Notes under the pieces: model-generated
The model's database searches: none
What the model saw: only the letters and a program-made list of their open reading frames with translations
Told to the model about the DNA's origin: nothing
Source of the DNA: Candidatus Dadabacteria bacterium
Lineage (GTDB): Bacteria > Desulfobacterota_D > UBA1144 > Nemesobacterales > Nemesobacteraceae
Assembly (NCBI GenBank): GCA_022827275.1
Contig: JAJDTG010000020.1
Location: 62,001 to 126,000, forward strand
Direction: 5' to 3'
DNA length: 64,000 nt
Shown: positions 31,782 through 35,991 of the stretch, piece after piece
Layout of the letters: every line of letters begins with the position of its first letter
Position numbering within the stretch: the first letter of the stretch is position 1
Translations under genes and position numbers: made by a program

Positions 31782-31797
31782 TGTTTCACGTGAAACA
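31782..31797. promoter_or_regulatory. parS: parS site 1, perfect TGTTTCACGTGAAACA
   Basis: Exact match to the canonical chromosomal ParB-binding palindrome; oriC-proximal and originally just downstream of mnmE. Confidence 0.92.
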
Positions 31798-32202
31798 TTC
31801 GGAACTTATATATTTAAGTTGACACCTGCCAACCTATAGGATAATCTTAAACCTGTTATAAAAAAGTCCGGTGTATCAAGAATGACTTAACACATCGAAC
31901 TAGGTTCTAGAACCCCGTAAAGCAACTTGGCTATTTAGAGCAACCAAGCAAGGGCCTTAACTTTTGGTATCCCCGTCACAGTTATTTAGGAGATTAACCA
32001 ATGAGAGTTTTAAATTATGGTTTCTCCCTTGTCAAAAGGTGCGTTCTATTTTGCCTAAAAGCCAGAATAGAAGACCATCTTTTCTAAGGTGAGTTTGAGG
32101 GCGGTGGTTCCTCATCGCCCTTTCTTCTAACTCAATAATCAGCAGGCCAAGTAGTCCACCATAAAATGAATCCTACTACTATTACAAAAAGTATTGTTCC
32201 CA

Positions 32203-32562
32203 TTATCTAAAGTAATCTGAAATGTCTCTTGTGTTAGGATCAACACTCTTTCTAATGTCCTCTTCATCAAATTTCTTGCTCTCATAAAAATCTAAGTTTA
32301 GGGATGTATGACCTTGTATAATTGCTTCCTTTAAAGCTTCTATGCAAGCTTCTGGACTATAACGGTTTAATTTATCAGCAATTAGCCTTACTGCTGTTTC
32401 TCTTAGTGGTCTTCCCCATTCTATCCTGCATCTGATGTATTCCTCTAACAGTTCCCAGAACATCTCAACCTTCCAAGGTATTTCCATTTCTACATAGTAG
32501 TCAGGAACAGAATACTCGATCAATTCTTTCTTGAAGACCTCCATCACTTCTTTGAAATCCAT
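32203..32562 (-). CDS. Hypothetical IS passenger protein
   Basis: 119-aa ORF inside the IS boundaries, same strand as the transposase. Confidence 0.55.
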   Translation of the reverse strand: MDFKEVMEVFKKELIEYSVPDYYVEMEIPWKVEMFWELLEEYIRCRIEWGRPLRETAVRLIADKLNRYSPEACIEALKEAIIQGHTSLNLDFYESKKFDEEDIRKSVDPNTRDISDYFR

Positions 32563-32618
32563 AACAATTCTCCTGCTAGGAATGTTGACTTTCGGATTGT
32601 ATCAAAGCAGGATGAAAA

Positions 32619-32801
32619 TTGCTATATGTTTTTCCTAATGGTAATGTAAGTGGCGGAATGAATGACGAGAAAGATATTCCCGACATTTCCGAAGTAGATT
32701 TTGATACTAGGCTGAAAGTACTACTTGGCGTTCCTCCAGCGAAAGAAGAGGAAGAGCAGCCCGTTACTTCCCCTTCTACTGAATCAGATCCTGATAAGTA
32801 A
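32619..32801 (+). CDS. Small acidic protein in the IS (likely start 32658, MNDEKDIPDISEVDFDTRLKVLLGVPPAKEEEEQ...)
   Basis: Short ORF convergent with and slightly overlapping the transposase 3' end; contains FDTRLKVLLGVPP. Confidence 0.4.
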   Translation: MLYVFPNGNVSGGMNDEKDIPDISEVDFDTRLKVLLGVPPAKEEEEQPVTSPSTESDPDK

Positions 32802-33702
32802 GCCTTTTTCCTACCAGTCCTTTTAAAGTAAGGTTTATCTGGTCTATGGTATCCATAGGACGAACGTTTGCACGGTTGGCAAACTCGTTGATATACTTCT
32901 GAAGGTGCTTTACTGACATCCTGTGATATATCCCGTAGTAACCTCGTTTCAGCAAAGCCCAGAAGGATTCCACTCCATTTGTTGAAGCTTCACCCCTGAC
33001 ATATTCTCCCGCCTTGTGGTTAACGGTGCTGTGTTCATATCCCAGGTATTTGACGATTTGATACATACCTGCTTCATCCGTGTGGATGTTTGTACCACGA
33101 GCGACATTCTCAATAATCATCTTGGCTGTCGTTGCCTGGTCTGTACTGTCAAGAACCATAGCCTTGACCTTCTTGCTCTTTCTTTCCTTCATAGCCATGA
33201 CAGGCTTCTTTCCGACCGAACCCCGCCCTTGCTTGAGTTTCTTGCTCTTGTGCTTGTTTTTCTCAATTCCGCCAAGATATGTTTCGTCTACCTCAACCTG
33301 TCCAAAGAACTGCCTGGCATTTTCATCCCAGGCTTGCCTTATGCGGTGAGAGAGAAACCATGCTGATTTCTGCGTAATGCCGAGGTCGCTTGCGAGCTTG
33401 GTACTGGATACACCCTTGAGAGAAGTTCCCATTAGGTATATGGCAGTCAGCCACTTTCGATATGGCAACCTGCTTTCTTCCATCAAGGTTCCGGTGCGGA
33501 CACTGAAATACTTGCGACAGGAAGGACACCAGTAAGGCATCTTCTTATGAGAGGCTTCAGAAGTCTCTGTATATCCGCAGTATGGACAACATCTGTTCCC
33601 TTCCCATCGTACCGCTTCTATATGTTTCATAGCTTTCTCTTCTGTATCGAAGTGTTCCAGAAGTTCGTAAAGAGAAAGCTTTTGTCTTTTTTGCTTAGGC
33701 AT
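32776..33702 (-). CDS. IS1595 family transposase (ISXO2-like)
   Basis: N-terminal zinc ribbon CPYCGYTETSEASHKKMPYWCPSCRKYFSVRTGTLMEESRLPYRKW; VEVDETYLGGIEKNKH; IHTDEAGMYQIVKYLGYEHSTVNHKAGEYVRGEASTNGVESFWALLKRGYYGIYHRMS. Confidence 0.95.
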   Translation of the reverse strand: MPKQKRQKLSLYELLEHFDTEEKAMKHIEAVRWEGNRCCPYCGYTETSEASHKKMPYWCPSCRKYFSVRTGTLMEESRLPYRKWLTAIYLMGTSLKGVSSTKLASDLGITQKSAWFLSHRIRQAWDENARQFFGQVEVDETYLGGIEKNKHKSKKLKQGRGSVGKKPVMAMKERKSKKVKAMVLDSTDQATTAKMIIENVARGTNIHTDEAGMYQIVKYLGYEHSTVNHKAGEYVRGEASTNGVESFWALLKRGYYGIYHRMSVKHLQKYINEFANRANVRPMDTIDQINLTLKGLVGKRLTYQDLIQ

Positions 33703-33791
33703 TCATAACCCTCCTTAACTATTATAAAACTACCTGTTTTTGGAAGGTTTGTCAACTTAAGTATATAATTCCCAAACATTCCGCCCTTCTT

Positions 33792-35186
33792 TTACTTTCC
33801 AATGCAGAATCTGGAGAAAATTCTGCCCAGAATATCTTCCGTGGTCACTTCTCCCGTAATCTCGCCGAGCGAATTCATTGAGTTTCGCAATTCTATCGAG
33901 AGGATCTCCGGATACTCGTTCCGCTCAAGAAGCTCAAGGAACATGCGCAGCTGGTCGCGGGACTCCTCCATGGATTTTTTGTGACGAAGGTTTGTCAGGA
34001 CCAGTTCCGAGGCATCCGAGACACTAGGCGAGCCCGAAAGAGTCTCGAACATGGCCTGCCTGAGCTGTTCTATCCCCTCTTTTGCAAGCGCCGAGGTTTC
34101 AACCGGCTTTTTTCGCCCAAGAATCCGTCGCAGCTTCGGTCTTTCTAGGTTTTCCTCAAGATCTATCTTGTTGATTACGACAAGATGTTTCTTCTTAACG
34201 GCAGTCTTGAGGATTTTTCTGTCCAGAGCATCAAGTTCCGTGCTCTGGTCCAAAACGACGAGCACGAACTCGGATTCCTCGGCTTTTTTGAGGGAAAGTT
34301 CCACCCCGAGCCTTTCTATCCGGTCCTCCGTGTCCCTTATACCGGCTGTATCCGTTATCACGAGGGGAATTCCCCCGACATTTATTCTCTCTTCGATAAA
34401 ATCCCTCGTAGTTCCGGCTATCGGACTCACTATAGCCCTCTGAGTCTCAAGCAGGCAGTTAAGTATGCTCGATTTCCCCACGTTAGGCTTGCCTAGTATT
34501 ACCATCGTCACCCCGTCTCTGAACATTCTGCCCGTGTCGTAGCTATCGATGAGCGCAGAAAGTTCTTTTTCCACGGATCCAGAGGCTTCCTTGAGGCGTT
34601 TTTTCGCAATTGGGTCTATATCTTCCTCGGGAAAATCGAGATTCGCCTCTATTTCCGCCAGAACGTCAAGAATTCGATCCTTAAGTTCGTTAACCTTGCC
34701 CGAAAGGGTCCCTTCAAGCTGGGCCTCGGCGTACCGGAGGCTCTGTTCGGTCTGGGCGCTTATAACGTCGGAAACCGCCTCGGCCTGCGCCAAGTCCATT
34801 TTCCCGTTAAGAAACGCCCTCTGGGTAAACTCGCCCGGGGCAGCCAGGGTCGCCCCGAGGCCGATCAGAATCTCAAGTATCTTCCGGGGAACCATATGCC
34901 CCCCGTGAGAGTGTATTTCGGCTACGTCCTCCCCAGTATAGGTATCGGGGGAACTCATAACTACGCACAGGACTTCATCCACCGTTCCGCCTGTTTCGGG
35001 GTCGACTATCTTCCCGAAACAGAGTTTTCTCTCGGAAAAACCCGAGTTCCCCGCAGGAACGAAAATTTTTCTCGCAATCGAGTGAGATTCACCGCCGCTT
35101 AAGCGGATTACGGCTACTCCCCCCTCTCCAAGTGGGGTGGAAATGGCGGCTATGGTGCTTTCGCGCTCAGGCACAATCGACGACAT
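33792..35186 (-). CDS. mnmE: tRNA uridine-5-carboxymethylaminomethyl modification GTPase MnmE
   Basis: TIAAISTPLGEGGVAVIRLSG, GKPNVGKSSILNCLLETQRAIVSPIAGTTRDFIEE, DTAGIRDTEDRIERLGV, C-terminal IFSRFCIGK. Confidence 0.97.
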   Translation of the reverse strand: MSSIVPERESTIAAISTPLGEGGVAVIRLSGGESHSIARKIFVPAGNSGFSERKLCFGKIVDPETGGTVDEVLCVVMSSPDTYTGEDVAEIHSHGGHMVPRKILEILIGLGATLAAPGEFTQRAFLNGKMDLAQAEAVSDVISAQTEQSLRYAEAQLEGTLSGKVNELKDRILDVLAEIEANLDFPEEDIDPIAKKRLKEASGSVEKELSALIDSYDTGRMFRDGVTMVILGKPNVGKSSILNCLLETQRAIVSPIAGTTRDFIEERINVGGIPLVITDTAGIRDTEDRIERLGVELSLKKAEESEFVLVVLDQSTELDALDRKILKTAVKKKHLVVINKIDLEENLERPKLRRILGRKKPVETSALAKEGIEQLRQAMFETLSGSPSVSDASELVLTNLRHKKSMEESRDQLRMFLELLERNEYPEILSIELRNSMNSLGEITGEVTTEDILGRIFSRFCIGK

Positions 35187-35242
35187 GAAAGAGAATCTAC
35201 CATATAAAGCCGCATTCGGTCAGAGAAAAAAGGCGAAAAAAA

Positions 35243-35274
35243 GCCCTGAATGTTTCACGTGAAACATTCAGGGC
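35243..35274 (-). terminator. parS: 32-nt perfect palindrome GCCCTGAATGTTTCACGTGAAACATTCAGGGC followed by T7 on the minus strand; contains parS site 2 (35251-35266)
   Basis: Read directly; the minus strand continues GGGCTTTTTTTCGCC after the stem, downstream of the AhpD-like gene stop (35308). Confidence 0.88.
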
Positions 35275-35307
35275 AAATGAGGAGGATTTCCGAAGAAACC
35301 GTTAAAA

Positions 35308-35991
35308 CTACTTCTCGAGACTCTTAAGCGTGTCCATGGCAATGCTGGTGTGCGCGTAACAGGAACCGGCAGTCATGACCATGGCAACGTTTATGGCCTC
35401 AGCCATCTGCTCAGCAGTTACGCCGTCGGTATGCGCGTCCTTAACGGTTCCCCTTATACAATAAGGACATTTAGTCGCATGAGCACAGGCAAGACCTATT
35501 ATGCCTCTCTTCATTTTTTTGCTGAGGGCTCCGTCGGCAAAGATTTTCTTGTGAAGCTCCATGAAATGGGGAGAAATATCGCCGCTGCACTCCCTAAAAC
35601 TGGCAATTTCCTTCGCTATGTCCTTTTTGAAGAAATGCCCCTCGGTAAGCGGGATGCCGCTTTCGAGGGTGTCCCAGGCTTCAAAAGCCAGGCTTGAGAA
35701 CGCGAAAGGGCCTCCCATGTTGAGCCTGAGCCCCACATATATCGATTCGACTATTTCCTGGTCGCTCGCTCCCTCTTTTTTGCTGGCGCGGACCCTTGAC
35801 CTTATACAGTAGGGGCAAGCCGTAATATGCGCTACTGCTACCGCAATAAGCTGTTTTTCCTTTGCGCTAAGTGCCCCATCGGTAAATACCGAATCATGAT
35901 AAGCCATCCAAGAATCATAAAGATCCGGGTTCAGCTTTCTGAGATGAGCTATATCCCCACCGATCTGGGCCTTCATTATAGTATCAGACAT
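35308..35991 (-). CDS. Tandem-domain carboxymuconolactone decarboxylase/AhpD-like protein
   Basis: Two AhpD-type CxxC motifs: ITACPYCIRSRVRASKKEG and ATKCPYCIRGTVKDAHTDG. Confidence 0.88.
   Translation of the reverse strand: MSDTIMKAQIGGDIAHLRKLNPDLYDSWMAYHDSVFTDGALSAKEKQLIAVAVAHITACPYCIRSRVRASKKEGASDQEIVESIYVGLRLNMGGPFAFSSLAFEAWDTLESGIPLTEGHFFKKDIAKEIASFRECSGDISPHFMELHKKIFADGALSKKMKRGIIGLACAHATKCPYCIRGTVKDAHTDGVTAEQMAEAINVAMVMTAGSCYAHTSIAMDTLKSLEK

Follow-up and report, generated by a model that had tools for sequence, protein, structure and literature searches.

Can the same bases of a bacterial chromosome serve as a partition site and also end a transcript? This question is raised by a short palindrome between an AhpD-like gene and mnmE in the 64-kb stretch of DNA from a Candidatus Dadabacteria MAG analysed here, in the following called the window, for which an earlier note had proposed that a second parS forms the stem of an intrinsic terminator. 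As set out below, it is highly probable that the site is a composite element, i.e., a chromosomal parS that GC-rich arms and a U-tract have turned into the intrinsic terminator of the AhpD-like gene, with two jobs that are most likely independent.

The palindrome, its neighbouring genes and the partition system

Positions 35243-35274 read GCCCTGAATGTTTCACGTGAAACATTCAGGGC, a perfect 32-nt palindrome that carries the exact parS consensus TGTTTCACGTGAAACA at 35251-35266 (no strand assigned) and is followed on the minus strand by T7 (35236-35242, A7 on the plus strand), all as the earlier note had described. On the minus strand the palindrome forms a hairpin with a 14-bp stem and a 4-nt loop, in which parS supplies the inner 6 bp of the stem and the ACGT loop, whereas the outer arms are GCCCTGAA and TTCAGGGC. 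Folded as RNA, the 48-nt stretch reaches -24.2 kcal/mol (z = -7.8) with the 14-bp stem and the ACGT loop, and with its 14 pairs and 4-nt loop this hairpin is the strongest terminator-like site between 30 and 42 kb. Similar to Rho-independent terminators, it has a GC-rich outer stem, a 4-nt loop and a U-tract directly after the stem, and it lies on the gene strand 33 nt past the stop codon of the AhpD-like gene (35308-35991, minus strand; two stretches match the CMD family PF02627), the transcript of which would end at the predicted terminator. Rfam returned no known RNA family over 35100-35400, the only matches being far below the gathering scores. Ahead of the terminator lie a small UUCG-capped hairpin (GGTTTC-TTCG-GAAATC, 35284-35300 of the window, minus strand) and a TCCTCCTC stretch, conserved in most members of the genus.

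On the other side, mnmE (33792-35186, minus strand; MnmE_helical, TrmE_N and MMR_HSR1 domains) starts 57 nt after the hairpin. The claimed location just downstream of the AhpD-like gene and upstream of mnmE is confirmed, with both genes on the minus strand. The interval contains a candidate mnmE promoter (35194-35223, minus strand), a consensus match consisting of CTGACC and TAGATT with 18 nt in between, which is conserved in 13 genomes of the genus; TGG directly before the second hexamer resembles an extended -10, and the ATG follows 7 nt on. Both the genus and several other families have a TATGGTAGATT-like motif ahead of mnmE, which also resembles an extended -10.

With up to three mismatches the window contains two parS matches vs. 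0.17 expected, a number reached in 0 of 100 shuffles, and both are the only parS sites (exact or with one or two mismatches) of the whole 1.77-Mb genome, so that the designation "second parS" was appropriate. The ParA-ParB operon is intact and located on another contig, and its ParB has the N-terminal, HTH and C-terminal domains, as is expected for the cognate ParA and ParB of a chromosomal parS. Chromosomal parS sites also cluster near the replication origin, and here dnaA (53035) and dnaN (54841) lie 18-20 kb from the palindrome and the cumulative GC skew of the window has its minimum near 52.5-54 kb. No DnaA boxes TTATNCACA were found within the 64-kb window. The exact TGTTTCACGTGAAACA, the low copy number, the vicinity of oriC-type genes (dnaA at 18 kb) and the ParA-ParB operon therefore all resemble chromosomal parS of ParABS systems (Spo0J/ParB family). 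However, the literature found treats parS as bare 16-bp sites in or between genes, whereas here it is built into a predicted RNA hairpin. A full-text literature search, with the matches screened by title and abstract, yielded no description of a parS inside a terminator, which is not proof of novelty. For the stability module of plasmid RA3, a tested terminator is described downstream of orf11, which in the list of genes comes last ahead of parS (PMC7414963). This is similar in that a terminator belongs to a partition module, but as far as this description goes, terminator and parS are apparently separate there.

Conservation and covariation within the genus

The hairpin and its T-rich U-tract are present upstream of mnmE, on the AhpD-to-mnmE strand, in all 13 readable genomes of the genus (G008 was left out of the count, as its contig starts inside mnmE). 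The parS core and the three pairs flanking it (GAA/TTC) never vary among these genomes, even though their mnmE identity goes down to 76.7%. The outer pairs do change, with T-A/C-G once, C-G/T-A twice and G-C/C-G/A-T once, giving four pairs in which both sides are altered, and on the mnmE tree parsimony requires at least 12 outer-pair changes, nearly all of which are retained as standard pairs. Among the 10 haplotypes 99.3% of the cells are paired vs. 94.2% after shuffling, and the covariation score is 0.195 vs. 0.087, in both cases with 0 of 500 shuffles reaching the observed value. The pairing of the RNA is therefore conserved by covariation, as in intrinsic terminators, and the alignment of orthologous loci that the earlier note had proposed as a check of its arms speaks for it. 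A difference to Rho-independent terminators is that the upper stem and loop are invariant here and only the outer pairs evolve, which is expected if the upper part is also a DNA site bound by a protein.

The other parS of the genome (31782-31797, no strand assigned), situated just after mnmE in relatives, serves as an internal control. Most members of the genus have mnmE flanked by two parS sites, and the downstream one has at most three flanking pairs and no T-tract, neither arms nor T-tract being present in the genome studied here. Since this control parS does without arms or T-tract, the arms are dispensable for a parS.

These data bear directly on two other explanations. As parS sites are common and T-tracts short, both could have come to lie next to each other by chance, but this is refuted by the covariation, and the genus-wide conservation, the fold (z = -7.8) and a recurrence in other bacteria far above the re-pairing expectation leave it a practically negligible probability. 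Alternatively, the long palindrome could be a DNA element, either a cruciform or an extended site for ParB binding, and its T-tract incidental. The inner GAA/TTC flanks are indeed invariant and their GAA side is largely common to the armless downstream parS, which means that some of the extension may reflect a ParB preference. As an account of the whole palindrome this is nevertheless very improbable, because the downstream parS has no outer arms, the T-tract is always on the gene-sense strand, the arm sequence is free to vary provided that pairing is kept, and G.U or U.G pairs in several genus genomes break the DNA palindrome while the RNA stem is kept. These wobbles would fit selection on RNA. 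Judged from the alignment, one 32-bp sequence appears to be under two constraints, one on the DNA (centromere) and the other on the RNA (terminator), which can be told apart column by column.

That a terminator and a predicted ParB site occupy the same bases, as the earlier note had suggested, is therefore well supported at the sequence level, by the covariation together with the armless parS as internal control. As double-stranded DNA the parS core would load ParB, and as RNA the same bases would fold into the terminator hairpin, which would release RNA polymerase shortly ahead of the candidate mnmE promoter. ParB recognises double-stranded DNA, and the driver of intrinsic termination is the RNA; the two functions need not interact, therefore, and would most likely be independent as they act on different molecules. 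The simplest reading is that one sequence does two independent jobs.

Origin, recurrence in other bacteria and possible coupling

This Dadabacteria genus presumably inherited the composite element from its ancestor, in which a parS had been turned into a terminator. In the sister genus (G014) a separate terminator, CCCAATAAT...ATTATTGGG-TTTTTT, is located immediately 5' of an armless parS, and hence the fusion looks derived. Another family of the order has parS-free hairpins between AhpD and mnmE (L066, L068, L070, L071; read by eye). A terminator seems to be wanted at this position to separate two transcription units, and we infer that it was built from parS in this genus. With TGTTTC-ACGT-GAAACA, parS already provides half a hairpin, so that a T-tract and a few additional base pairs are sufficient to make a terminator out of it.

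Such fusions are not unique to this genus. When 85,462 species genomes were scanned for a parS with GC and T6 behind it, at least 120 stretches were obtained, at least 80 of which yielded loci. Among the matches listed, the arms of parS-N-SS-T6 sites are paired up to the T-tract in 60 of 88 cases vs. approximately 7 expected from random re-pairing of the arms. Paired sites between genes, again among the matches listed and based on simple long-ORF gene calls, follow a gene reading into the T-tract in 45 of 49 cases vs. 5 of 17 for unpaired ones (p = 1.6e-6), and without Burkholderiaceae in 28 of 31 cases (p = 2.6e-5). Predicted parS-cored terminators after gene ends occur, among the matches listed, in Paraburkholderia, Methylotenera, Leuconostoc, Clostridia and others, several of them being two-way between convergent genes (Methylotenera, Leuconostoc). 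All 31 Paraburkholderia genomes contain two parS sites approximately 1.55 kb apart, in P. fungorum one inside mnmG and the other just upstream of it (gene names by sequence resemblance only); 29 of the 31 have a terminator-like sequence at the upstream-type site, with arms that again covary. One Methylotenera genome yielded a single parS, which is such a predicted terminator and adjoins mnmE. These distributions indicate that the fusion arose separately in other phyla, in unrelated bacteria. It is a minority arrangement: among an even sample of 299 Pseudomonadota genomes, a T-tract was present in 22 vs. an A-tract as control in 9 (p = 0.03), with clear terminators in approximately 5 of the 22 and none of the 9, and thus only about 2% of the genomes have a clear case. 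That parS of Methylophilaceae is generally terminator-borne was considered as well and rejected, with 4 of 41 sites.

The recurrence also bears on a possible mutual influence between parS-bound ParB and the RNA polymerase at the terminator, in which a ParB roadblock would aid termination or polymerase release would keep parS and its surroundings free for ParB loading. The same bases serve both functions, at least three lineages have parS-terminators close to mnmE or mnmG in the origin region, and in other species an effect of ParB on nearby promoters has been reported (PMC7022226). However, the majority of parS sites do not form terminators, also in those clades in which parS-terminators occur, as the Methylophilaceae count illustrates, the polymerase must cross parS before it is released, and the second parS of this genome has no terminator. 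Such mutual influence is therefore rather unlikely. It is likewise doubtful, and slightly more so, that termination is tuned by ParB occupancy, or ParB loading by polymerase release, so that the segregation state would show in the AhpD/mnmE region, and that parS-terminators near mnmE or mnmG are a repeatedly evolved regulatory device. Since the fusion recurs in culturable genera (Paraburkholderia, Leuconostoc), a mutual influence of the segregation complex and transcription termination is directly testable with natural sites. Independently of this, altering some parS sites would alter a terminator, too.

The parS downstream of mnmE and an IS1595-family element

An IS1595-family element (31801-33773, no strand assigned; ends read from the sequence) lies between mnmE and the other parS, and its insertion is the reason for the parS spacing of 3.47 kb here instead of approximately 1.49 kb. 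The 8-bp repeat AAACATTC flanks the element at 31793-31800 and 33774-33781 and overlaps a parS arm, so that parS was split by the insertion and then made whole again through the duplication. In 6 of 14 genomes of the genus, elements with similar ends adjoin this downstream parS, in either of its arms, with AAACATTT as the flanking sequence on the other side of parS (loci examined: L036, L040, L043, L044, L045 and L321-L335). Each genome contains no more than 2-4 sequences that match the element end. Possibly, the IS1595-family element targets parS; the terminator-parS carries an insertion of it in none of the 13 genus genomes.

Several families elsewhere in the order have a DnaA-box-like palindrome, TCCACA...TGTGGATAA, after the parS that lies just 3' of mnmE (L048, L050, L053, L054 and L056-L072), which suggests that oriC adjoins the mnmE-downstream parS in those families. 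A second, variant parS TGTTGCACGTGAAACA is located approximately 1.7 kb after mnmE in L048, L053, L058, L061, L065 and L072.
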